The translations under genes and the position numbers were made by a program. Below the pieces are notes generated by a model, which did no database searches, was not told where the DNA came from, and saw only the letters and a list, made by a program, of their open reading frames with translations. A stretch of 64,000 bases of DNA from Malaciobacter pacificus (GTDB taxonomy: Bacteria; Campylobacterota; Campylobacteria; Campylobacterales; Arcobacteraceae), in NCBI RefSeq assembly GCF_004214795.1, contig NZ_CP035928.1, positions 1,054,001 to 1,118,000 of the forward strand, read 5' to 3'. Shown here in pieces: positions 42,919-62,000 of the stretch (the stretch's first letter is position 1; each line of letters opens with the position of its first letter).

Positions 42919-43527
42919 TTAATTCACATAGTTTTTATAAACAAGTGCTAATGCTAATCTATCTTTAACTTTTAGTTTTTTAAATAATGAACTTATATGT
43001 TTTTTTACAGTTACTTCCGCTATATCAAGGGTATTTGCAATTTTACTATTTGTAAGACCTTGTGCAACTAATTCTAAAACTTCAAGCTCTTTAACCTTTA
43101 ATTCATTAAAAAGTGTGTTTTTCTTTGTGTCGTTTATAGGAATAGAATTTATTAAAAACTGCATCAATTCTGGGTAAACCCAAGTATTTCCATCATTTAC
43201 TGTATCAATAACACTTTCTAAAATTGAAATATTTGATAAGGCATGAATATAAGATTTGTAACCTTTTTTTAGAAGTGTACAACCTTCAATATTATTTGTA
43301 GTATTTCTTAAAGCAATAAATTTACAGTTATTGTTTTGATTTAACTCATCATAAATTTCATCACTTTCATGACTATCAAGATGTTGTAAAAATAATATCT
43401 TATCTTCATTTGATATATTTAAATCGTAAAAATCTTCAAAGTTTTTGATTAAAATAATATCAAATTTTGTAGATTTGTTTATCTCATTTTCTAAAAAATC
43501 ATATTTAGTTAAAGCTATTATTTTCAT
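42919..43527 (-). CDS. LuxR-type transcriptional regulator with degenerate receiver domain
   Basis: The C-terminal ~65 of 202 residues are a LuxR/NarL HTH (LKVKELEVLELVAQGLTNSKIANTLDIAEVTVKKHISSLFKKL). The N-terminal ~125 residues keep a receiver-like pattern (KFIALRNT, LKKGYKSYIHAL), but the acidic pair near the start is absent and the phosphoacceptor position in KILFLQHLD appears not to be the usual Asp. It is probably not controlled by ordinary phosphorylation. It overlaps the PAS-HlyD gene by 4 bases (ATGA), so the regulator and secretion adaptor are made together; it likely controls the adhesin locus. Confidence 0.85.
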   Translation of the reverse strand: MKIIALTKYDFLENEINKSTKFDIILIKNFEDFYDLNISNEDKILFLQHLDSHESDEIYDELNQNNNCKFIALRNTTNNIEGCTLLKKGYKSYIHALSNISILESVIDTVNDGNTWVYPELMQFLINSIPINDTKKNTLFNELKVKELEVLELVAQGLTNSKIANTLDIAEVTVKKHISSLFKKLKVKDRLALALVYKNYVN

Positions 43528-45260
43528 ATATCAAGTGACCTTACAATTGGTTTTAGAATATAACTTAAAATAGTTTTCTTTCCAATTAAAATATCTGCAT
43601 CTACAGTCATACCTGGTTTAATCTCAAGTTTTTTATTATTGTTAAGAAATTTTGTTTCAGCTTTGATATGTACGATATAATTCTCTTTTTCTGGGTCTTT
43701 TTCATCAATCAATGTATCCGCTGAAATATAAGAGATTTCACCTTTAACTGATCCATAAAGTGAAAAGTCATAGGGTCTAAGTTTTATTCTTACTTCTTGA
43801 CCTTCGTATAAAAAACCAATATCTGCAGGGTCTACTTTAATCTCTGCCAACATATATTTTGAGTCAGGGACAATCTGTGCCATAATAGTTCCAGGAGATA
43901 CTGCTTCACCTTTTGTTTTCACTGAGATTTTTTTGATAATTCCATCATCGGGTGACTTGATAATAGTTTCAGTTAATTTTTCTTCTAAATATTTTAAGTC
44001 TTCTTTTACTGTTTTAATATCATTATATACAACTAAAAGTTCATCTTTTGCTTTTGATCTGTAATCTTCTTTTGTCTCATCAATACTTCTTTCTATCTCT
44101 TTAATAGATGATTTTAAAGTAGGAATAGAACCTTTTAAAGTTTTAAGTTCAGCATCCACATCATTTTTCTTTCTTTGTAAATCTAAAAGCTCAACTTTAG
44201 AGATAATTCTTTCCTCAACCAAAGGCATTTTTATTTTCATCTCTTTTTGGATTAAGGCAAAATTGTTTTCAGTAATTTTTAGATTTTTATAGGCATCTTT
44301 TAAATCATTTTTTCTTTGAGACAGTTGTTCTTTTAGAATATTTATTGCTGCTTGGTATTTTTTCTCGTTGATTTTAAATAGTTGTATCTCATTTTCCATT
44401 ATTTCAGGATCATATTTAATAACTTCCTTATTTACTTTAATTTCAGTGTTTTCTGCTTGAGCTTTTAATCTTTGCGCTTTAGCTAAAAATGTATTAAGGT
44501 TGTATCTGTTTTTTTCAATTTCACTTTTAAAGTTAACATCTGATAAATTAAATAATACTTCACCTTTTTTAACTTTATCCCCCTCTTTTATAAAGCTTTC
44601 TTTTAAAATTCCACCTTCAAGTGATGAAATAGTTTGAATATTTGTACTTGTTATGACTTTTCCATTTGTTTTAACGATATCATCAATCTCTGAAAAATAT
44701 GACCATGTTAATAAAAATAAAAGGGTAAATGAAATTAACCATAAAACTTTATGTAAGCTACTTGATGTTTTAAGTAAAATTGCAGATGAAAATGATGACA
44801 TAAATTCTAATGTTGACTTATCATATTTTTTCTTTAGAAGGTTTTCTTCATTTACTTTTTTTAGTATCTTTTCTTTTGTAATATCATTACTTGTAATAAT
44901 AAAACCTATATGTTCTTTATTATCGTCAAATAATGGAGTTATAATAGTATCAGTCCAAATTACTGAATCAGAAAATGAACTATGTTTTACTTCCCCTTTC
45001 CAAACAGTTTTTAAACTACTGGCTTCTTTAAATTGATTATTAAAGTTTATTATAGAATCTTTTTTTATCAATAATGTGTAAGGTTTATCAATTAATTCTG
45101 ATGGTTTATAATCAAAAACATTGCAAAGACTCGTACTTACATGTTTTATTGTTCCATCTTTATCTGTAAGTGCTAACATAACATAGTTATCTAAAAGTTC
45201 TCTATTTTGAAATTTAAAACTTTTTCTGAGTTGGTCGTCAAAACCTTTTTTTTCTTCCAC
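43524..45260 (-). CDS. PAS-domain-fused HlyD-type type I secretion adaptor
   Basis: The 578-residue protein starts with a PAS domain (about 20-130: LALTDKDGTIKHVSTSLCNVFDYKPSEL, WTDTIITPLFDDNKEHIGFI, then ITKEK). A membrane segment follows (about 180-200, VLWLISFTLLFLLTWSYF). The HlyD part has a biotinyl/lipoyl-like entry (GKVITSTNIQTISSLEGGIL, EGDKVKKGEVLFNL), a long coiled coil, and the return strand region SPDDGIIKKISVKTKGEAV. The PAS domain is cytoplasmic by this topology. The start is GTG 45260 behind AAGGTTTACA. It is divergent from the TolC gene and should bridge the ABC exporter and TolC channel. Confidence 0.9.
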   Translation of the reverse strand: MEEKKGFDDQLRKSFKFQNRELLDNYVMLALTDKDGTIKHVSTSLCNVFDYKPSELIDKPYTLLIKKDSIINFNNQFKEASSLKTVWKGEVKHSSFSDSVIWTDTIITPLFDDNKEHIGFIITSNDITKEKILKKVNEENLLKKKYDKSTLEFMSSFSSAILLKTSSSLHKVLWLISFTLLFLLTWSYFSEIDDIVKTNGKVITSTNIQTISSLEGGILKESFIKEGDKVKKGEVLFNLSDVNFKSEIEKNRYNLNTFLAKAQRLKAQAENTEIKVNKEVIKYDPEIMENEIQLFKINEKKYQAAINILKEQLSQRKNDLKDAYKNLKITENNFALIQKEMKIKMPLVEERIISKVELLDLQRKKNDVDAELKTLKGSIPTLKSSIKEIERSIDETKEDYRSKAKDELLVVYNDIKTVKEDLKYLEEKLTETIIKSPDDGIIKKISVKTKGEAVSPGTIMAQIVPDSKYMLAEIKVDPADIGFLYEGQEVRIKLRPYDFSLYGSVKGEISYISADTLIDEKDPEKENYIVHIKAETKFLNNNKKLEIKPGMTVDADILIGKKTILSYILKPIVRSLDI

Positions 45261-45378
45261 TGTAAACCTTATTATTAGATAAAATCTAAGAAATCATTAA
45301 AATTAGTTCTTATTTTATAAAAACTTTTATAAAAATTTGGTAATATATACATAAATATTTGGTTGTTAGGAGAATATA

Positions 45379-47667
45379 GTGAAAATATATATTAATTTAT
45401 TTGTTATTTTTCACTTTTTAATGGTTTCTTCACTTTTTGGATTTTCTATAAAAGATGGTTATCCACTAGCATTAGAAAATGATATGGATTTTAAAATCAA
45501 TAAAAATAATTTAAATAATATAAGTATTGATAAAAAGATTGCTGATTCTTTATTATATCCATCTTTGGATTTTTCTGCTAATGTCGAAGCTAGTAGATTA
45601 ACTCAAGGAAAACTAACTCCAGATAATGAATCTTTAACAAAATCTGATAACTACGAATTAAAATTAACACAACCTATTTTTGATGGTTTCGAATCATCAT
45701 ATGAAAAAAAATTACAAGAGCAAAGATCTAAATCTGCAATTTATTATTTGAAAGAGAGCCAAAATAATGTTGCTTTAAACTATGTAATTGCATATGTAAA
45801 TACTTTGAGAGAAAAAGATTTATTTAGTTTGAGTAAGGAAAATTTACAAATTAGTAAAGATATATTTAATAAGGTATATAAGAAAGTAAATATTGGATAT
45901 GGAACAAAATTAGAGTTTGAAGAAGTTAAATCAAATATGGTAGAAAGCCAAGTTAATCTAGATATCCAAAAAATAAATTTAAAAGAAGCAATTGAAAACT
46001 TAAAATTATTTGTTCAAAGTGATTTTGATAGTAGTGAGCTAGAAAAACCAAATTTAAATGTTAAATTACCAAAAACTGTAAGTGAAGCATTAGAAATTGC
46101 ATATAGAGAAAACCCTTCTATTAATGTTTCGAAAACTAATGTATATGTAGCAAAGTTTGAGCAAAAAAGAAATCAAAAAGATTTTTATCCAAATTTAGAT
46201 TTAGTTAGTTCATATAATGTCAATAATGCTTTGTTTAAAGAAAATGATCAAGAATACAATGAATACAAAGTTGGTTTTGAAATTTCATACAATTTATTTA
46301 ATGGTGGAAGAGATACTTTAAGTGATAAAAAAGCATTACAAAATATTAAAGATAAAGAACTTTTAGTTAAAAAAAGTAAATATCAAGTTAAAACTGATCT
46401 GAGATTAGCATGGAATGCTTATAAATTAAACAAAGAAAAACAAGAGAGTTTAAAACAATATCTAATTGTAAAAAAAGATGTTTTAGATGCTACAAATAAA
46501 GAATTTGATTTAGGACTTAAAGATTTAAATACACTTTTAGAAACAAATATTGAATATGTTGATATTAAAAAAGATTTAATCAGAAATACATATGATTTAA
46601 TGATTACTAATTATGAGATTTTAAATGCAATGGGTAAATTAAGTGAGGCATTAGAAGATAAGCTTCCCACTTTAGATAAAATTGATGCAGATGATTTAGT
46701 TTTAAATATGCAAAATGATTTAGATTTTTCATTTGATAGAGATACAAAATATGAAGAAAAAAAATTAACAGTTATCAAACCTATTGAGAATAAGAAAAAA
46801 GAAATTTCAAATATTAAACCTAAAAACATGGTGAAAAAAGTTTCATTTGATAATTTAACATACGAAAAAACTAATACTAATCTTGAAAAAAATATCACTA
46901 CAACTATAAATAATACATTTAAAGAGAAGTTTTTAAATGCATCTAAAAACAAATATACAATTAATCTTGCTTTATCTGATTCTGAAATCAAAGCACAAAG
47001 ACTTTTAGATAGATATGAGCTTAATGATAATGCATTCTTCTTTAGTTTTAGAGAAGTAAATCCTCTGCAAAAAATTATGATGGGAATTTTTGATTCAAAA
47101 CAAGAAGCAAAAAATGCTATATCTAAACTTCATAACAATTTAAAAAATAATCAGCCAACAGTAGAAAAAATTGTTATTAAACAAAAACTTTACAATAAAT
47201 ATCATTCTAAAAATGACGCTATAGCTAAAGATGTTAAATTTGTTAGAGTTTCCCCAGTTATTAATAAACCATTAATAAAAAAAGTAACTTTTTCAACTAT
47301 GGAACCAAGTAATAATAAAAAAATTGGTAATATTAATTTTGATAACTTTAAAGATAAATTTTTAAATGCTTCAAAAGATAAATATACTATAAATTTAGCA
47401 TATTCAGATTCTGAAAAAAAGGCACAAGCTTTGTTACATAAGTATGGATTATCAAACAATGGTTTCTTTTTTAAATTTAGATATGAAAATCCATTACAAA
47501 AAATCATGCTTGGAGTTTTTGACTCTAAAGGAGAAGCTTTAAAAGCTATGGCTTCTTTACCTAAAGGTTTAAAATCAAATAGACCAAGAGTAGAAAAGGT
47601 TTCAATCAAGCAAGCTTTATTTCACAAATACAATAAAAACTATTCTACAAATCTTGGGAGTATATAA
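45379..47667 (+). CDS. TolC-family outer-membrane channel with two C-terminal SPOR-like domains
   Basis: The 762-residue protein has a signal peptide (YINLFVIFHFLMVSSLFGF) and a TolC core to about residue 440, with the paired-helix motifs YELKLTQPIFDG and YKVGFEISYNLFNGGRD. It then has a Lys/Asn-rich linker and two repeats of about 90 residues beginning KFLNAS-K-KYTINLA, each with AQ-LL--Y, NPLQKIM-GIFDSK and VEK--IKQ-L. These resemble SPOR domains, which bind denuded peptidoglycan. The start is GTG 45379 with TTAGGAG upstream. The exporter gene follows 5 bases later. Confidence 0.9.
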   Translation: MKIYINLFVIFHFLMVSSLFGFSIKDGYPLALENDMDFKINKNNLNNISIDKKIADSLLYPSLDFSANVEASRLTQGKLTPDNESLTKSDNYELKLTQPIFDGFESSYEKKLQEQRSKSAIYYLKESQNNVALNYVIAYVNTLREKDLFSLSKENLQISKDIFNKVYKKVNIGYGTKLEFEEVKSNMVESQVNLDIQKINLKEAIENLKLFVQSDFDSSELEKPNLNVKLPKTVSEALEIAYRENPSINVSKTNVYVAKFEQKRNQKDFYPNLDLVSSYNVNNALFKENDQEYNEYKVGFEISYNLFNGGRDTLSDKKALQNIKDKELLVKKSKYQVKTDLRLAWNAYKLNKEKQESLKQYLIVKKDVLDATNKEFDLGLKDLNTLLETNIEYVDIKKDLIRNTYDLMITNYEILNAMGKLSEALEDKLPTLDKIDADDLVLNMQNDLDFSFDRDTKYEEKKLTVIKPIENKKKEISNIKPKNMVKKVSFDNLTYEKTNTNLEKNITTTINNTFKEKFLNASKNKYTINLALSDSEIKAQRLLDRYELNDNAFFFSFREVNPLQKIMMGIFDSKQEAKNAISKLHNNLKNNQPTVEKIVIKQKLYNKYHSKNDAIAKDVKFVRVSPVINKPLIKKVTFSTMEPSNNKKIGNINFDNFKDKFLNASKDKYTINLAYSDSEKKAQALLHKYGLSNNGFFFKFRYENPLQKIMLGVFDSKGEALKAMASLPKGLKSNRPRVEKVSIKQALFHKYNKNYSTNLGSI

Positions 47668-47672
47668 CCTAA

Positions 47673-49862
47673 ATGCCACATACTGATAATATTGATTTTA
47701 ACTCTATAAAAGAGTACAACCGAGAAAACTCAATTTTAGATACTCTTACTATTTATTGTAAAATGAATGGTAGACCTTATTCAAAAGAGTCACTAATTGC
47801 AGGTTTACCTGTTGAAGCTGGAAGAAATATTCCTATTTTATTTTCTAAATCAAATTCTAAATCACTTTTTTCAAGAGCTGCCTCAAAAGCAGGTTTTAAA
47901 ACTAAGATTTTAAGAACTAAGTTATATGATATTAATCCATTAACATTACCATGTATTTTACTTTTAGATAATAAAAAAGATAAAGACGAATTAGAAGCAT
48001 GTATTCTTTTAGGTTTTGATGATGAATATAAACATGCAAAGGTGATTTTCCCTGAAGTTCCTGATGTTGAAAGTTTAGTTCCAATTGAAGAATTAGAAAA
48101 AAGATATTTTGGATTTTCAATTCTTCTTAAAAAAGAACTTGATTTTAAAGAAAATAAATCATCATTATCTATAAAAGAAAGTCACTGGTTATGGGGAAGT
48201 GTTAAAATCGTAAGAAATGTTTATAGAGATGTAATTATTGCTTCACTATTAATAAACTTATTTGTATTATCAACTCCACTTTTTACTATGAATGTATATG
48301 ACAGAGTAATTCCAAATAATGCAGTTGATACACTTTGGGTATTTGCTTTTGGTGTAGTTTTTATTTATGCCATTGATATCGCACTAAAGTTTTTACGTTC
48401 ATATTTTTTAGAAACTGCTGCAAAGAAAACAGATGTTATCGCTTCTTCAATTATATTTGAAAAAGTGCTAGATTTAAAAATGTCTTCTGTTCCTAATTCA
48501 GTTGGCTCTTTAGCTAATATTTTAAAAGAGTTTGAAAGTATTAGAGGTTTTTTAACTTCATCTACAATTGCACTTTTAATTGATGTACCATTTATTTTTA
48601 TATTTTTAATTGCTATATATTTTATTGGTGGATATTTAGTTATGGTGCCAATTTCTATTATTATAATTATTCTAATTTATACATTTTATTCAAAAATTAA
48701 ATTAGCAAATAGTATTAAAGAGTCATACGATGCAGGTTCAAATAAAAATGGAGTTTTAATAGAAAGTTTGTCTTCAATTGAAACTATTAAATCTTTAGGT
48801 GCTACTGGTTATTCTCAATGGAGATGGGAAGAAGCGACATCAAAAATTGCAGATAAAAGTATAGATACAAAAATGATATCTTCTTCAATTACTACTGTTA
48901 CATCTTTTTTAGTACAGTTAAATACAGTTGCCTTGGTAATTCTAGGTACATATTTAATTATGGATAATGAACTTACAATGGGAGGTTTAATTGCAACGAT
49001 TATTATTTCATCACGTGCTATTTCACCTATGGGACAAGTATCATCACTGTTATCAACATTTCAACATACAAAAACTACATATGAAGCTTTAAATGATATT
49101 ATGAATTTACCTGTTGAACACCCTCAAGGTAAAAAATTCGTAACTAGACCTGAATATAAAGGAAAAATTAATTTTAGAAATGTAAGCTTTAAATATCCAA
49201 ATGCTGATAATGAAACATTGTCTAATATATCTTTTAGTGTAGAACCAGGTGAAAAAGTTGCCATAATTGGTAAAATTGGTTCAGGAAAAACTACTATTCA
49301 AAAACTATTAGTTTCTTTATATGACCCAACTGAAGGTTCAATTTTAATTGATAATATTGATATCAAACAATTAGATCCTTCAGAACTGCGAAAACATATT
49401 GCTTATGTATCTCAGGATGTATTATTGTTTGATGGTACTGTTAAAGAAAATATAGTTTATAGAACTCCAAATATTGATGATGAAAAAATACTTGAAGCGG
49501 CTAGAATTAGTGGTGTTTTAGATTTTGTTAATAAACATCCAAAGGGATTTGATATGCCTGTTGGAGAGAGAGGTTCATTCCTTTCTGGTGGTCAAAAACA
49601 AGCAATATCAATTGCTAGATCAATTTTATTACCTTATCCAATTGTATTATTTGATGAACCAACAAGTTCAATGGATACTTCTTCTGAAAATAGATTTATC
49701 AATAGTATTAGAAATTATCAAGAAAATAAAACTGTTATTCTTGTTACTCATAAAACTTCATTATTAAAACTTGTGGATAGAATAATTGTTGTTGAAGATG
49801 GGCAAATTGTCTTAGACGGTAAAAAAGATATTATTATCAATAAACTAAATAATAAAAAATAA
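47673..49862 (+). CDS. Type I secretion ABC exporter with C39-like domain (LapB-type)
   Basis: The 729-residue protein has an N-terminal C39-like domain (about 20-150: DTLTIYCKMNGRPYSKESLIAGLP), then about six membrane segments (170-440), then an ABC ATPase with Walker A GKIGSGKTT, signature FLSGGQKQAISIAR and Walker B PIVLFDEPTSSMD. The C39 region lacks an obvious Gln-x5-Cys-Gly and the catalytic His/Asp pattern, so it is probably a non-proteolytic docking domain as in HlyB/LapB exporters. It lies between the TolC gene and the adhesin, its presumed substrate. Confidence 0.93.
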   Translation: MPHTDNIDFNSIKEYNRENSILDTLTIYCKMNGRPYSKESLIAGLPVEAGRNIPILFSKSNSKSLFSRAASKAGFKTKILRTKLYDINPLTLPCILLLDNKKDKDELEACILLGFDDEYKHAKVIFPEVPDVESLVPIEELEKRYFGFSILLKKELDFKENKSSLSIKESHWLWGSVKIVRNVYRDVIIASLLINLFVLSTPLFTMNVYDRVIPNNAVDTLWVFAFGVVFIYAIDIALKFLRSYFLETAAKKTDVIASSIIFEKVLDLKMSSVPNSVGSLANILKEFESIRGFLTSSTIALLIDVPFIFIFLIAIYFIGGYLVMVPISIIIIILIYTFYSKIKLANSIKESYDAGSNKNGVLIESLSSIETIKSLGATGYSQWRWEEATSKIADKSIDTKMISSSITTVTSFLVQLNTVALVILGTYLIMDNELTMGGLIATIIISSRAISPMGQVSSLLSTFQHTKTTYEALNDIMNLPVEHPQGKKFVTRPEYKGKINFRNVSFKYPNADNETLSNISFSVEPGEKVAIIGKIGSGKTTIQKLLVSLYDPTEGSILIDNIDIKQLDPSELRKHIAYVSQDVLLFDGTVKENIVYRTPNIDDEKILEAARISGVLDFVNKHPKGFDMPVGERGSFLSGGQKQAISIARSILLPYPIVLFDEPTSSMDTSSENRFINSIRNYQENKTVILVTHKTSLLKLVDRIIVVEDGQIVLDGKKDIIINKLNNKK

Positions 49863-50005: not shown

Positions 50006-53000
50006 ATGGCAATTGCTAGAATTTCAGATATTAGAGGATTAGTTTCAATTGATAATGGAATTTCAGAAGAAATCTTAAAAAATAAAGATGTAATTTCAGA
50101 ACACGGTGGTTTATTAACTATTACTGAGTTTGCAACAATTATTTTTGATGATGGTAGAGTTGTTGAAGTTACAGGACCTGTAACTTTTAATTTAGATTCA
50201 AGCTTTTTTAATGAAATTACATTTGAAGACTCAATAACACAGATAAGTGATTTTGCAAGTTTAGATTATATAAATAATGAATTTGATGAATCATTGATTC
50301 AAGAAGAATATCAAGATTCAACTTTATCACAAAATAACTTAGCTATAAATCTCCAAACTGAACAATTAGATACACAATTAAATAATCAAGATACTGAAAT
50401 AACTGAAGTTAATCCAGATATTACACAAACACAAAGCACAATTGATTTTGTAGAAGATGTTATTGAAGATATAGTACCATTGGATGAGAATCAAGATAAT
50501 GAAGTATCATTAGATCCAAGTGTAAGTGATACAAATGATGCCTTAACAGAATTTACAATGAGTAATGTAAATGACTTCACAGAAGGTTCAGCAGCCCAAG
50601 GACAAACTGTAGCAACAGTAGAAACTGCACCAGTAGATCCAGATGGTGGAGCTATTACATATACAATTTCTGATACAACAAACTATGCAATCGATCCAAC
50701 TACAGGAGAAGTAACACTTACAGCAGCAGGAGCAGAACTTGCAAATGCAGATTCAGGTGCAGACTTACCAGCATTTAATGTAACAGCAACAAGTGCAGGA
50801 GATTTAATCTCAACTGCAACAGTTGAAAACTTAGATCCAAGTGTAAGTGATACAAATGATGCCTTAACAGAATTTACAATGAGTAATGTAAATGACTTCA
50901 CAGAAGGTTCAGCAGCCCAAGGACAAACTGTAGCAACAGTAGAAACTGCACCAGTAGATCCAGATGGTGGAGCTATTACATATACAATTTCTGATACAAC
51001 AAACTATGCAATCGATCCAACTACAGGAGAAGTAACACTTACAGCAGCAGGAGCAGAACTTGCAAATGCAGATTCAGGTGCAGACTTACCAGCATTTAAT
51101 GTAACAGCAACAAGTGCAGGAGATTTAATCTCAACTGCAACAGTTGAAAACTTAGATCCAAGTGTAAGTGATACAAATGATGCCTTAACAGAATTTACAA
51201 TGAGTGATGTAGCTTCATTTAATGAGGGTGAAGCAGCTGAAGGACAAACTGTAGCAACAGTAGAAACTGCACCAGTAGATCCAGATGGTGGAGCTATTAC
51301 ATATACAATTTCTGATACAACAAACTATGCAATCGATCCAACTACAGGAGAAGTAACACTTACAGCAGCAGGAGCAGAACTTGCAAATGCAGATTCAGGT
51401 GCAGACTTACCAGCATTTAATGTAACAGCAACAAGTGCAGGAGATTTAATCTCAACTGCAACAGTTGAAAACTTAGATCCAAGTGTAAGTGATACAAATG
51501 ATGCCTTAACAGAATTTACAATGAGTAATGTAAATGACTTCACAGAAGGTTCAGCAGCCCAAGGACAAACTGTAGCAACAGTAGAAACTGCACCAGTAGA
51601 TCCAGATGGTGGAGCTATTACATATACAATTTCTGATACAACAAACTATGCAATCGATCCAACTACAGGAGAAGTAACACTTACAGCAGCAGGAGCAGAA
51701 CTTGCAAATGCAGATTCAGGTGCAGACTTACCAGCATTTAATGTAACAGCAACAAGTGCAGGAGATTTAATCTCAACTGCAACAGTTGAAAACTTAGATC
51801 CAAGTGTAAGTGATACAAATGATGCCTTAACAGAATTTACAATGAGTGATGTAGCTTCATTTAATGAGGGTGAAGCAGCTGAAGGACAAACTGTAGCAAC
51901 AGTAGAAACTGCACCAGTAGATCCAGATGGTGGAGCTATTACATATACAATTTCTGATACAACAAACTATGCAATCGATCCAACTACAGGAGAAGTAACA
52001 CTTACAGCAGCAGGAGCAGAACTTGCAAATGCAGATTCAGGTGCAGACTTACCAGCATTTAATGTAACAGCAACAAGTGCAGGAGATTTAATCTCAACTG
52101 CAACAGTTGAAAACTTAGATCCAAGTGTAAGTGATACAAATGATGCCTTAACAGAATTTACAATGAGTGATGTAGCTTCATTTAATGAGGGTGAAGCAGC
52201 TGAAGGACAAACTGTAGCAACAGTAGAAACTGCACCAGTAGATCCAGATGGTGGAGCTATTACATATACAATTTCTGATACAACAAACTATGCAATCGAT
52301 CCAACTACAGGAGAAGTAACACTTACAGCAGCAGGAGCAGACCTTGCAAATGCAGATTCAGGTGCAGACTTACCAGCATTTAATGTAACAGCAACAAGTG
52401 CAGGAGATTTAAGCTCAACTGCAACAGTTGAAAAATTAGATCCAAGTGTAAGTGATACAAATGATGCCTTAACAGAATTTACAATGAGTGATGTAAATGA
52501 CTTCACAGAAGGTTCAGCAGCCCAAGGACAAACTGTAGCAACAGTAGAAACTGCACCAGTAGATCCAGATGGTGGAGCTATTACATATACAATTTCTGAT
52601 ACAACAAACTATGCAATCGATCCAACTACAGGAGAAGTAACACTTACAGCAGCAGGAGCAGAACTTGCAAATGCAGATTCAGGTGCAGACTTACCAGCAT
52701 TTAATGTAACAGCAACAAGTGCAGGAGATTTAATCTCAACTGCAACAGTTGAAAACTTAGATCCAAGTGTAAGTGATACAAATGATGCCTTAACAGAATT
52801 TACAATGAGTGATGTAGCTTCATTTAATGAGGGTGAAGCAGCTGAAGGACAAACTGTAGCAACAGTAGAAACTGCACCAGTAGATCCAGATGGTGGAGCT
52901 ATTACATATACAATTTCTGATACAACAAACTATGCAATCGATCCAACTACAGGAGAAGTAACACTTACAGCAGCAGGAGCAGAACTTGCAAATGCAGATT

Positions 53001-56000
53001 CAGGTGCAGACTTACCAGCATTTAATGTAACAGCAACAAGTGCAGGAGATTTAATCTCAACTGCAACAGTTGAAAAATTAGATCCAAGTGTAAGTGATAC
53101 AAATGATGCCTTAACAGAATTTACAATGAGTAATGTAAATGACTTCACAGAAGGTTCAGCAGCCCAAGGACAAACTGTAGCAACAGTAGAAACTGCACCA
53201 GTAGATCCAGATGGTGGAGCTATTACATATACAATTTCTGATACAACAAACTATGCAATCGATCCAACTACAGGAGAAGTAACACTTACAGCAGCAGGAG
53301 CAGAACTTGCAAATGCAGATTCAGGTGCAGACTTACCAGCATTTAATGTAACAGCAACAAGTGCAGGAGATTTAATCTCAACTGCAACAGTTGAAAACTT
53401 AGATCCAAGTGTAAGTGATACAAATGATGCCTTAACAGAATTTACAATGAGTAATGTAAATGACTTCACAGAAGGTTCAGCAGCCCAAGGACAAACTGTA
53501 GCAACAGTAGAAACTGCACCAGTAGATCCAGATGGTGGAGCTATTACATATACAATTTCTGATACAACAAACTATGCAATCGATCCAACTACAGGAGAAG
53601 TAACACTTACAGCAGCAGGAGCAGAACTTGCAAATGCAGATTCAGGTGCAGACTTACCAGCATTTAATGTAACAGCAACAAGTGCAGGAGATTTAATCTC
53701 AACTGCAACAGTTGAAAACTTAGATCCAAGTGTAAGTGATACAAATGATGCCTTAACAGAATTTACAATGAGTAATGTAAATGACTTCACAGAAGGTTCA
53801 GCAGCCCAAGGACAAACTGTAGCAACAGTAGAAACTGCACCAGTAGATCCAGATGGTGGAGCTATTACATATACAATTTCTGATACAACAAACTATGCAA
53901 TCGATCCAACTACAGGAGAAGTAACACTTACAGCAGCAGGAGCAGAACTTGCAAATGCAGATTCAGGTGCAGACTTACCAGCATTTAATGTAACAGCAAC
54001 AAGTGCAGGAGATTTAATCTCAACTGCAACAGTTGAAAACTTAGATCCAAGTGTAAGTGATACAAATGATGCCTTAACAGAATTTACAATGAGTAATGTA
54101 AATGACTTCACAGAAGGTTCAGCAGCCCAAGGACAAACTGTAGCAACAGTAGAAACTGCACCAGTAGATCCAGATGGTGGAGCTATTACATATACAATTT
54201 CTGATACAACAAACTATGCAATCGATCCAACTACAGGAGAAGTAACACTTACAGCAGCAGGAGCAGAACTTGCAAATGCAGATTCAGGTGCAGACTTACC
54301 AGCATTTAATGTAACAGCAACAAGTGCAGGAGATTTAATCTCAACTGCAACAGTTGAAAACTTAGATCCAAGTGTAAGTGATACAAATGATGCCTTAACA
54401 GAATTTACAATGAGTGATGTAGCTTCATTTAATGAGGGTGAAGCAGCTGAAGGACAAACTGTAGCAACAGTAGAAACTGCACCAGTAGATCCAGATGGTG
54501 GAGCTATTACATATACAATTTCTGATACAACAAACTATGCAATCGATCCAACTACAGGAGAAGTAACACTTACAGCAGCAGGAGCAGAACTTGCAAATGC
54601 AGATTCAGGTGCAGACTTACCAGCATTTAATGTAACAGCAACAAGTGCAGGAGATTTAATCTCAACTGCAACAGTTGAAAACTTAGATCCAAGTGTAAGT
54701 GATACAAATGATGCCTTAACAGAATTTACAATGAGTGATGTAGCTTCATTTAATGAGGGTGAAGCAGCTGAAGGACAAACTGTAGCAACAGTAGAAACTG
54801 CACCAGTAGATCCAGATGGTGGAGCTATTACATATACAATTTCTGATACAACAAACTATGCAATCGATCCAACTACAGGAGAAGTAACACTTACAGCAGC
54901 AGGAGCAGAACTTGCAAATGCAGATTCAGGTGCAGACTTACCAGCATTTAATGTAACAGCAACAAGTGCAGGAGATTTAATCTCAACTGCAACAGTTGAA
55001 AACTTAGATCCAAGTGTAAGTGATACAAATGATGCCTTAACAGAATTTACAATGAGTAATGTAGCTTCATTTAATGAGGGTGAAGCAGCTGAAGGACAAA
55101 CTGTAGCAACAGTAGAAACTGCACCAGTAGATCCAGATGGTGGAGCTATTACATATACAATTTCTGATACAACAAACTATGCAATCGATCCAACTACAGG
55201 AGAAGTAACACTTACAGCAGCAGGAGCAGAACTTGCAAATGCAGATTCAGGTGCAGACTTACCAGCATTTAATGTAACAGCAACAAGTGCAGGAGATTTA
55301 ATCTCAACTGCAACAGTTGAAAACTTAGATCCAAGTGTAAGTGATACAAATGATGCCTTAACAGAATTTACAATGAGTAATGTAAATGACTTCACAGAAG
55401 GTTCAGCAGCCCAAGGACAAACTGTAGCAACAGTAGAAACTGCACCAGTAGATCCAGATGGTGGAGCTATTACATATACAATTTCTGATACAACAAACTA
55501 TGCAATCGATCCAACTACAGGAGAAGTAACACTTACAGCAGCAGGAGCAGAACTTGCAAATGCAGATTCAGGTGCAGACTTACCAGCATTTAATGTAACA
55601 GCAACAAGTGCAGGAGATTTAATCTCAACTGCAACAGTTGAAAACTTAGATCCAAGTGTAAGTGATACAAATGATGCCTTAACAGAATTTACAATGAGTG
55701 ATGTAGCTTCATTTAATGAGGGTGAAGCAGCTGAAGGACAAACTGTAGCAACAGTAGAAACTGCACCAGTAGATCCAGATGGTGGAGCTATTACATATAC
55801 AATTTCTGATACAACAAACTATGCAATCGATCCAACTACAGGAGAAGTAACACTTACAGCAGCAGGAGCAGACCTTGCAAATGCAGATTCAGGTGCAGAC
55901 TTACCAGCATTTAATGTAACAGCAACAAGTGCAGGAGATTTAATCTCAACTGCAACAGTTGAAAACTTAGATCCAAGTGTAAGTGATACAAATGATGCCT

Positions 56001-59000
56001 TAACAGAATTTACAATGAGTAATGTAAATGACTTCACAGAAGGTTCAGCAGCCCAAGGACAAACTGTAGCAACAGTAGAAACTGCACCAGTAGATCCAGA
56101 TGGTGGAGCTATTACATATACAATTTCTGATACAACAAACTATGCAATCGATCCAACTACAGGAGAAGTAACACTTACAGCAGCAGGAGCAGAACTTGCA
56201 AATGCAGATTCAGGTGCAGACTTACCAGCATTTAATGTAACAGCAACAAGTGCAGGAGATTTAATCTCAACTGCAACAGTTGAAAACTTAGATCCAAGTG
56301 TAAGTGATACAAATGATGCCTTAACAGAATTTACAATGAGTGATGTAGCTTCATTTAATGAGGGTGAAGCAGCTGAAGGACAAACTGTAGCAACAGTAGA
56401 AACTGCACCAGTAGATCCAGATGGTGGAGCTATTACATATACAATTTCTGATACAACAAACTATGCAATCGATCCAACTACAGGAGAAGTAACACTTACA
56501 GCAGCAGGAGCAGAACTTGCAAATGCAGATTCAGGTGCAGACTTACCAGCATTTAATGTAACAGCAACAAGTGCAGGAGATTTAATCTCAACTGCAACAG
56601 TTGAAAACTTAGATCCAAGTGTAAGTGATACAAATGATGCCTTAACAGAATTTACAATGAGTGATGTAGCTTCATTTAATGAGGGTGAAGCAGCTGAAGG
56701 ACAAACTGTAGCAACAGTAGAAACTGCACCAGTAGATCCAGATGGTGGAGCTATTACATATACAATTTCTGATACAACAAACTATGCAATCGATCCAACT
56801 ACAGGAGAAGTAACACTTACAGCAGCAGGAGCAGACCTTGCAAATGCAGATTCAGGTGCAGACTTACCAGCATTTAATGTAACAGCAACAAGTGCAGGAG
56901 ATTTAAGCTCAACTGCAACAGTTGAAAAATTAGATCCAAGTGTAAGTGATACAAATGATGCCTTAACAGAATTTACAATGAGTGATGTAAATGACTTCAC
57001 AGAAGGTTCAGCAGCCCAAGGACAAACTGTAGCAACAGTAGAAACTGCACCAGTAGATCCAGATGGTGGAGCTATTACATATACAATTTCTGATACAACA
57101 AACTATGCAATCGATCCAACTACAGGAGAAGTAACACTTACAGCAGCAGGAGCAGAACTTGCAAATGCAGATTCAGGTGCAGACTTACCAGCATTTAATG
57201 TAACAGCAACAAGTGCAGGAGATTTAATCTCAACTGCAACAGTTGAAAACTTAGATCCAAGTGTAAGTGATACAAATGATGCCTTAACAGAATTTACAAT
57301 GAGTGATGTAGCTTCATTTAATGAGGGTGAAGCAGCTGAAGGACAAACTGTAGCAACAGTAGAAACTGCACCAGTAGATCCAGATGGTGGAGCTATTACA
57401 TATACAATTTCTGATACAACAAACTATGCAATCGATCCAACTACAGGAGAAGTAACACTTACAGCAGCAGGAGCAGACCTTGCAAATGCAGATTCAGGTG
57501 CAGACTTACCAGCATTTAATGTAACAGCAACAAGTGCAGGAGATTTAAGCTCAACTGCAACAGTTGAAAAATTAGATCCAAGTGTAAGTGATACAAATGA
57601 TGCCTTAACAGAATTTACAATGAGTGATGTAAATGACTTCACAGAAGGTTCAGCAGCCCAAGGACAAACTGTAGCAACAGTAGAAACTGCACCAGTAGAT
57701 CCAGATGGTGGAGCTATTACATATACAATTTCTGATACAACAAACTATGCAATCGATCCAACTACAGGAGAAGTAACACTTACAGCAGCAGGAGCAGAAC
57801 TTGCAAATGCAGATTCAGGTGCAGACTTACCAGCATTTAATGTAACAGCAACAAGTGCAGGAGATTTAATCTCAACTGCAACAGTTGAAAACTTAGATCC
57901 AAGTGTAAGTGATACAAATGATGCCTTAACAGAATTTACAATGAGTGATGTAGCTTCATTTAATGAGGGTGAAGCAGCTGAAGGACAAACTGTAGCAACA
58001 GTAGAAACTGCACCAGTAGATCCAGATGGTGGAGCTATTACATATACAATTTCTGATACAACAAACTATGCAATCGATCCAACTACAGGAGAAGTAACAC
58101 TTACAGCAGCAGGAGCAGAACTTGCAAATGCAGATTCAGGTGCAGACTTACCAGCATTTAATGTAACAGCAACAAGTGCAGGAGATTTAATCTCAACTGC
58201 AACAGTTGAAAACTTAGATCCAAGTGTAAGTGATACAAATGATGCCTTAACAGAATTTACAATGAGTGATGTAGCTTCATTTAATGAGGGTGAAGCAGCT
58301 GAAGGACAAACTGTAGCAACAGTAGAAACTGCACCAGTAGATCCAGATGGTGGAGCTATTACATATACAATTTCTGATACAACAAACTATGCAATCGATC
58401 CAACTACAGGAGAAGTAACACTTACAGCAGCAGGAGCAGAACTTGCAAATGCAGATTCAGGTGCAGACTTACCAGCATTTAATGTAACAGCAACAAGTGC
58501 AGGAGATTTAATCTCAACTGCAACAGTTGAAAACTTAGATCCAAGTGTAAGTGATACAAATGATGCCTTAACAGAATTTACAATGAGTAATGTAGCTTCA
58601 TTTAATGAGGGTGAAGCAGCTGAAGGACAAACTGTAGCAACAGTAGAAACTGCACCAGTAGATCCAGATGGTGGAGCTATTACATATACAATTTCTGATA
58701 CAACAAACTATGCAATCGATCCAACTACAGGAGAAGTAACACTTACAGCAGCAGGAGCAGAACTTGCAAATGCAGATTCAGGTGCAGACTTACCAGCATT
58801 TAATGTAACAGCAACAAGTGCAGGAGATTTAATCTCAACTGCAACAGTTGAAAACTTAGATCCAAGTGTAAGTGATACAAATGATGCCTTAACAGAATTT
58901 ACAATGAGTAATGTAAATGACTTCACAGAAGGTTCAGCAGCCCAAGGACAAACTGTAGCAACAGTAGAAACTGCACCAGTAGATCCAGATGGTGGAGCTA

Positions 59001-62000
59001 TTACATATACAATTTCTGATACAACAAACTATGCAATCGATCCAACTACAGGAGAAGTAACACTTACAGCAGCAGGAGCAGAACTTGCAAATGCAGATTC
59101 AGGTGCAGACTTACCAGCATTTAATGTAACAGCAACAAGTGCAGGAGATTTAATCTCAACTGCAACAGTTGAAAACTTAGATCCAAGTGTAAGTGATACA
59201 AATGATGCCTTAACAGAATTTACAATGAGTAATGTAAATGACTTCACAGAAGGTTCAGCAGCCCAAGGACAAACTGTAGCAACAGTAGAAACTGCACCAG
59301 TAGATCCAGATGGTGGAGCTATTACATATACAATTTCTGATACAACAAACTATGCAATCGATCCAACTACAGGAGAAGTAACACTTACAGCAGCAGGAGC
59401 AGAACTTGCAAATGCAGATTCAGGTGCAGACTTACCAGCATTTAATGTAACAGCAACAAGTGCAGGAGATTTAATCTCAACTGCAACAGTTGAAAAATTA
59501 GATCCAAGTGTAAGTGATACAAATGATGCCTTAACAGAATTTACAATGAGTAATGTAAATGACTTCACAGAAGGTTCAGCAGCCCAAGGACAAACTGTAG
59601 CAACAGTAGAAACTGCACCAGTAGATCCAGATGGTGGAGCTATTACATATACAATTTCTGATACAACAAACTATGCAATCGATCCAACTACAGGAGAAGT
59701 AACACTTACAGCAGCAGGAGCAGAACTTGCAAATGCAGATTCAGGTGCAGACTTACCAGCATTTAATGTAACAGCAACAAGTGCAGGAGATTTAATCTCA
59801 ACTGCAACAGTTGAAAACTTAGATCCAAGTGTAAGTGATACAAATGATGCCTTAACAGAATTTACAATGAGTAATGTAAATGACTTCACAGAAGGTTCAG
59901 CAGCCCAAGGACAAACTGTAGCAACAGTAGAAACTGCACCAGTAGATCCAGATGGTGGAGCTATTACATATACAATTTCTGATACAACAAACTATGCAAT
60001 CGATCCAACTACAGGAGAAGTAACACTTACAGCAGCAGGAGCAGAACTTGCAAATGCAGATTCAGGTGCAGACTTACCAGCATTTAATGTAACAGCAACA
60101 AGTGCAGGAGATTTAATCTCAACTGCAACAGTTGAAAACTTAGATCCAAGTGTAAGTGATACAAATGATGCCTTAACAGAATTTACAATGAGTAATGTAA
60201 ATGACTTCACAGAAGGTTCAGCAGCCCAAGGACAAACTGTAGCAACAGTAGAAACTGCACCAGTAGATCCAGATGGTGGAGCTATTACATATACAATTTC
60301 TGATACAACAAACTATGCAATCGATCCAACTACAGGAGAAGTAACACTTACAGCAGCAGGAGCAGAACTTGCAAATGCAGATTCAGGTGCAGACTTACCA
60401 GCATTTAATGTAACAGCAACAAGTGCAGGAGATTTAATCTCAACTGCAACAGTTGAAAACTTAGATCCAAGTGTAAGTGATACAAATGATGCCTTAACAG
60501 AATTTACAATGAGTAATGTAAATGACTTCACAGAAGGTTCAGCAGCCCAAGGACAAACTGTAGCAACAGTAGAAACTGCACCAGTAGATCCAGATGGTGG
60601 AGCTATTACATATACAATTTCTGATACAACAAACTATGCAATCGATCCAACTACAGGAGAAGTAACACTTACAGCAGCAGGAGCAGAACTTGCAAATGCA
60701 GATTCAGGTGCAGACTTACCAGCATTTAATGTAACAGCAACAAGTGCAGGAGATTTAATCTCAACTGCAACAGTTGAAAACTTAGATCCAAGTGTAAGTG
60801 ATACAAATGATTCAATAACTCAAGTTGTAGACACAGACGATACAGCAAATACAATAGATGAAAATGTTGCAGATGGAACATACACAGGAGTAACACTAGA
60901 AGCAACAGATGCAGATGGAGAAACTGTAACTTACTCATTACCTGATGATGTACCATTTAGTATAGATGAAAATGGAAGAATTGTAACTGATGGTGAAATA
61001 GATTATGAAACACAAGATAGTTATACGTTTACAGTAACAGCAACAAGTGCAGATGGAACATCAACGACTAAAGATATTACTATAAATGTAAATGATTTAG
61101 AAGAAGATTTGACAGCAGATGGCGTTAATATAGATATTAGTGTGGTTAGTTCAAATGTTGAAGTTGTTGAAAACTTATCACCAAGTGTAACAAGACTTGA
61201 TGATATTGAAAATGTAACTACTTTAGCTATGGATGGTGATAGTACATATGAATTTGATAATATGAATAGCGCACTATATACATCAAGTAACAATATTAAT
61301 GATTATGTTGAAGTAAATACTAATTCAAATACAATTGCTACATATAGTGGTGATGATGTAATAAATGTAGATGGTTCACAAAATAGTGCAATTGATGCCG
61401 GAGAAGGAAACAATAGAATAGATATAGATGGAAATTCCCAAGCTATTTATGTTGGTGCAGGAGATGACTCTATTCGTGTAGGTGGCACTGCAAATAGTGC
61501 TATTGATTTACATGATGGGAATAATATTATAGATATAACAAATAATTCTTCTAATATCTACTCAGGTTCAGGTAGTGATTCTATTTATGTTGGTGGGACA
61601 GTTAATGGATCAATTGGCTCTGGAGCAGGAGATGATACAATAGAGGTTTCAAGAGTAACTGGGAATATTGATGCAAATGAAGGAAATGATTCTATAGTTG
61701 TAAATAATTATGTTAATGGATCAGTATATTTAGGTGGTGGAGATGATAATTTAAATATTGATGGTTATGTCAGTGGAAATATTGCAGCAGGTACTGGAAA
61801 TGATATAGTTGATGTAGATGGTTATGTCAATGGAAGTATAGATTTACAAGATGGAAATGATATTTTACATGTTGGAAATTATGTTCAAGGAAATATTTAC
61901 GGTGCAGAAGGAAATGATATCATTATCCATGATGGTCAAGTGAAAAACTCAATTGATGGTGGAACTGGTACAGACTCTATTTTACTTAATAATTACACAG

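Follow-up and report, generated by a model that had tools for sequence, protein, structure and literature searches.

The window, by which we mean the whole 64,000-nucleotide stretch of the Malaciobacter pacificus genome analyzed here, harbors a type I secretion locus whose periplasmic adaptor gene encodes a PAS domain ahead of the HlyD part. This gene is followed by a LuxR/NarL-type regulator gene and faced, across a divergent intergenic region, by genes for a TolC-family channel, an ABC exporter, and a giant adhesin that is likely the substrate of the exporter (table 1). The adhesin comprises 33 copies of a 107-aa repeat, and the exact spacing and near-identity of these copies (window positions 50510-61102) point to recent homogenization. 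The C-terminal SPOR domains of TolC are arranged in tandem, and the total length of this protein ranges from ~570 to 920 aa among relatives.

Table 1. Features of the PAS-HlyD locus, in window coordinates.
Feature	Coordinates	Strand	Profile matches and remarks
LuxR/NarL-type regulator, degenerate receiver (CsgD/VpsT-like)	42919..43527	-	4-nt overlap of its start with the hlyD stop
PAS-HlyD fusion, type I secretion periplasmic adaptor	43524..45260	-	578 aa, GTG start
Periplasmic HlyD part (barrel-sandwich + helical hairpin)	43527..44690	-	TIGR01843, PF13437, PF16576
Transmembrane helix, ~aa 171-190	44691..44750	-	
Linker, aa 130-167	44760..44873	-	Helix following conserved D126-I127-T128, then EFMxSxSxA tail motif
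PAS domain, aa 29-129	44874..45176	-	PF13426 E 6e-14; AlphaFold PAS-like fold
Divergent intergenic region pas-hlyD/tolC	45261..45378	.	Contains pas-hlyD TTAAGG-type ribosome-binding site
TolC-family outer membrane channel, C-terminal SPOR repeats	45379..47667	+	PF02321, PF05036, TIGR01844
LssB-type type I secretion ABC exporter, N-terminal C39-like domain (CLD)	47673..49862	+	TIGR03375 E 7.5e-264
Giant adhesin, runs past window	50006..64000	+	5046 aa in genome, stop at window-equivalent 65146

The adaptor sequence was compared with Pfam and NCBIfam profiles, among which PAS_9 (PF13426) scored 52.6 bits against a gathering cut-off of 27, and the same region was also matched by the PAS_4, PAS, and TIGR00229 S-box profiles. 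This score, in combination with the PAS strands and helices in the predicted model, identifies the region as a PAS domain. The remainder of the protein (aa 169-575) matched TIGR01843 (type_I_hlyD; E 4.6e-101, 338.8 bits against a curated cut-off of 208.65), and together with its LssB-type ABC and TolC neighbors this match places it among the HlyD-type periplasmic adaptors. The AlphaFold model exhibits a PAS-like fold (pLDDT ~80-88 over aa 31-130), a helix at residues 128-144, a poorly predicted linker (very low confidence over aa 141-170), a single membrane helix, and the HlyD fold. All Foldseek hits listed for the entire model were adaptors, and the closest solved structures of the HlyD part were 5nen (LipC) and 8dck (HlyD). 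The preliminary description had proposed, from the letters of the DNA, some 130 residues of PAS character fused to an HlyD adaptor, which agrees well with a PAS region spanning aa ~15-145 and with a strong PAS_9 match directly ahead of the HlyD membrane helix.

An annotation artefact, in which PAS and HlyD would be encoded separately or HlyD would start internally after the PAS region, retains next to no probability, as nothing was found in its favor and one unbroken frame spans both parts in 12 genomes. In each of the six closest loci, a TTAAGG-type ribosome-binding site lies 5-6 nt upstream of the GTG start, and M154, the sole internal start codon in aa 131-175, is preceded by no site of this type. 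The dN/dS of the PAS codons among relatives is 0.05-0.13, similar to that of the HlyD part and indicative of purifying selection. Because of this conserved distal site, its absence before M154, and the low dN/dS, we consider the PAS domain to be translated and under selection, and an internal start is ruled out.

The full architecture was detected in 12 of the 104 genomes of the family (Arcobacteraceae), with identities of 32-100% and a PAS_9 match in every one, which dismisses the idea of a peculiarity of a single genome. The relatives found by name were also Arcobacteraceae, and the source genome measures 2.66 Mb. Sampling 399 genomes across the order and 397 across the phylum yielded no PAS-HlyD beyond the family; contig scans retrieved fusions of the Arcobacteraceae type only, the remaining matches spanning the HlyD part alone, and no plasmid record spanned both the PAS and the adaptor region. 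Other phyla were covered solely by pattern scans and plasmids, so that any independent fusions there would be poorly represented. When 52 adaptors were placed on a tree, one branch (support 92/87, unstarred) separated the 12 PAS-HlyDs from all others, and a single gain of PAS on HlyD is therefore favored by the sequences, short of proof. A literature search whose coverage excluded most subscription papers returned no publication on a PAS-bearing HlyD, and within that literature the architecture is without published precedent. As for other fusions, an HlyD match in one genome lies within a stop-free 1179-aa open frame (G088:C84:677-1993), possibly an ABC-HlyD fusion; a long frame in another genome (G036), considered as a candidate of the same kind, proved to be two genes.

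TolC and ABC genes adjoin pas-hlyD in 11 of the 12 loci, the ABC gene of the remaining one (G007) lying ~7 kb off behind a rearranged stretch, and nine of the 12 loci have a matching adhesin start beside the exporter genes. L062 and L063, the most distant of the loci, carry other large repeat proteins upstream. In these same two loci, a histidine kinase gene is located upstream of TolC (L062:7223-10214 and L063:3581-5785), accompanied in L062 by a receiver gene. The suggestion that the architecture tracks with giant-adhesin loci thus holds as an association but not as a specific one, since HlyDs of this clade that lack PAS are encoded in equivalent exporter operons, too.

A CsgD/VpsT-like regulator gene directly follows pas-hlyD in 12/12 loci, often with a 4-nt overlap. 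It resembles the CsgD, VpsT, and NarL regulators in combining a degenerate receiver with a GerE domain, VpsT being among its fold matches, and some members have Glu or Asn in place of the receiver Asp. The c-di-GMP motif of VpsT, which we take to be W[FLM][TS]R, appears absent in the window regulator, where WVYP is found instead. The HlyD-regulator pair also occurs order-wide with PAS-less adaptors of the same clade, so that a tie of the PAS specifically to the LuxR-type gene is ruled out and, as far as the compared sequences go, the pairing predates the PAS domain. Conserved adaptor-regulator pairs, with or without PAS, were observed across much of the Campylobacterales (L035-L052, L073-L095, and L118-L137). 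With a transcription-factor gene after every PAS-HlyD gene, the earlier proposal that redox, oxygen, or a ligand could gate secretion directly "rather than through transcription" was too strongly worded; the CsgD/VpsT-like factor is likely to govern locus expression and does not have to contact the PAS domain.

Evolutionary rates were examined by comparing the window protein with four distant clade-1 relatives (L061 without an ABC gene in the stretch compared). Identities reached 66-68% in the PAS domain and 72-77% in the linker, 47-51% in the periplasmic HlyD part, 38-41% in the N-terminal domain of the LuxR-type regulator, and, in the exporter, 68-70% in the CLD and 71-76% in the membrane and ATPase parts. 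By these identities, PAS and linker are as slow as the exporter and far slower than the periplasmic adaptor and the regulator N-domain, and evolution at the pace of the ABC protein is what would be expected of a part working with it.

The PAS domain is attached ahead of the tail segment that leads into the membrane helix. A motif (E/D)(F/Y)MxSxSxA stands just ahead of the membrane helix in nearly all adaptors of the clade, and it can be aligned both to E. coli HlyD, starting at residue 40 (8dck), and to the tails of Campylobacterota HlyDs lacking PAS. Passages in PMC10386944 and PMC11026475, citing Zhao 2022, describe residues 35-50 of E. coli HlyD as touching the CLD of HlyB, a contact essential for secretion, and, in the same two papers, residues 9-24 as an amphipathic helix that sits on the elbow helix of HlyB. 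In PAS-less Campylobacterota adaptors ~8-60 residues precede the motif, whereas the PAS clade has the PAS domain and a helix/linker of ~25 residues in their place. E. coli HlyD (8dck, 7sgr) and LipC (5nen) resemble the fusion in topology (by homology), barrel-sandwich, and hairpin, and the cytoplasmic EF(L/M) tail motif of E. coli HlyD is alignable with that of PAS-HlyD, although neither protein has a PAS domain and E. coli HlyD carries instead a cytoplasmic stretch of ~60 residues that includes an amphipathic helix and an acidic cluster. Because of the homology between the tail motif and the segment of E. coli HlyD that docks on the CLD, we infer that the PAS domain lies on a short cytoplasmic tail beside the exporter CLD, a predicted position in line with that of the preliminary description. 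The CLDs of the PAS clade also have a short insertion near aa 97-106 of the exporter (6 residues; 4 in L062 and L063), missing from 20 of 21 PAS-less systems, which is suggestive at most, being one inherited event and no independent correlation with PAS. The insertion falls in the hairpin ahead of the strand on which the degenerate C39 His position is expected.

The PAS domain itself resembles the "VS" PAS type of other sensors in the genome (L002, L007, L019), and its best solved match by sequence is the MmoS PAS (3ewk), which binds FAD. The PAS domains of Campylobacterota GGDEF and MCP proteins, MmoS, and Aer share with it the PAS_9/S-box family and the W-K-G motif, but their output is an enzyme or a receptor, whereas that of PAS-HlyD is an export adaptor. 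Regarding ligands, at positions that we assume to be the FAD residues of Aer, Asn is replaced by Ser (the Asn34 position) and RHPDMP is lost in 12/12 sequences (RHPDM reading KKDSI), with a further Asn-to-His replacement, and the pocket Trp is retained in 11/12. With Asn and RHPDM lost in the alignment of the 12, these domains depart from flavin-binding PAS of the Aer/MmoS type, and in the same alignment the helical region lacks an invariant His of the kind expected of a haem-binding PAS. Invariant residues of the pocket are S42, T103, and T105. D126 is invariant with a helix next to it, and D126 plus the following helix constitute the usual signaling exit of PAS domains.

In its LssB-type ABC exporter, HlyD, TolC, and giant adhesin, the locus is akin to the LapA/LapBCE systems. 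Within the order, the source genome included, sister operons without PAS contain LapG/LapD relatives, and LapG homologs are present elsewhere in the source genome. One such arrangement is a second type I secretion operon (L112, G000:C1:1565000-1575000), which encodes TolC, a LapG-like protease, a LapD-like c-di-GMP receptor, ABC, a PAS-less HlyD, and a LuxR-type regulator; here, as in some other PAS-less operons, LapG and LapD are encoded between TolC and ABC. Near the PAS-HlyD loci, LapG/LapD were found in 0/12 versus 8/21 PAS-less loci (Fisher p 0.03), a difference not taken as proof because it is phylogeny-dependent and some contigs end early. The adhesin N-terminus matched no curated model, and its first 200 aa contain no [TAP]AAG LapG-type site; lacking local LapG/LapD and a LapG-cleavable N-terminal retention module, the locus differs from a retained adhesin system of the LapA type.

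In the reading that we prefer, and to which we assign an even chance, the PAS would regulate the adaptor-exporter junction from the cytoplasm and tune adhesin export after translation. Up to six PAS domains would lie beside the CLDs in the inner-membrane complex, given the E. coli stoichiometry of six HlyD to three ABC dimers; a signal that the PAS binds or senses would pass through the post-PAS helix and alter the docking of the tail on the CLD or the access of the substrate, thereby turning giant-adhesin export up or down, on or off. With its very low confidence, the predicted linker supplies no rigid signaling path. In a more specific form that we advance only tentatively, the adaptor would be a sensor whose PAS state gates export at the HlyD-CLD junction, replacing the locally missing LapD/LapG switch. 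Known cofactor motifs being mostly lost, the PAS may sense nothing, and its conserved surfaces could equally be a purely structural dock. A ligand-free docking or oligomerization module, helping HlyD-ABC assembly or giant-substrate capture, seems rather unlikely to us, even though the PAS occupies the place of the amphipathic helix and acidic cluster of E. coli HlyD, most clade-1 members have a neutral to slightly basic stretch ahead of the EFM motif, Aer-type flavin residues have largely disappeared, and PAS conservation matches that of the CLD; against it, PAS-less relatives in the family work with tails of ~20-70 aa, so that docking needs no PAS, and PAS folds serve sensing more often than not.

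It is improbable, in our estimation, that PAS-HlyD sequesters and releases the LuxR-type regulator according to PAS state or export activity, relaying export status to transcription. The invariable adjacency of the two genes fits such a link, as does a regulator that has no conserved kinase input because its receiver is degenerate, but the pair exists order-wide without PAS, and a shared PAS interface would predict something other than a fast regulator N-domain next to a slow PAS.

For regulation at the junction between adaptor and exporter, the broader significance lies in a poorly described part of these machines, as little is known of the structure of the cytoplasmic part of type I adaptors, a part that matters for substrate recognition and assembly (PMC8277102). 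With a conserved folded domain on the adaptor tail, there is a handle for asking if one-step export is regulated and by what means, and the presence of PAS on the adaptor suggests a second route, besides LapD/LapG, for controlling giant adhesins.
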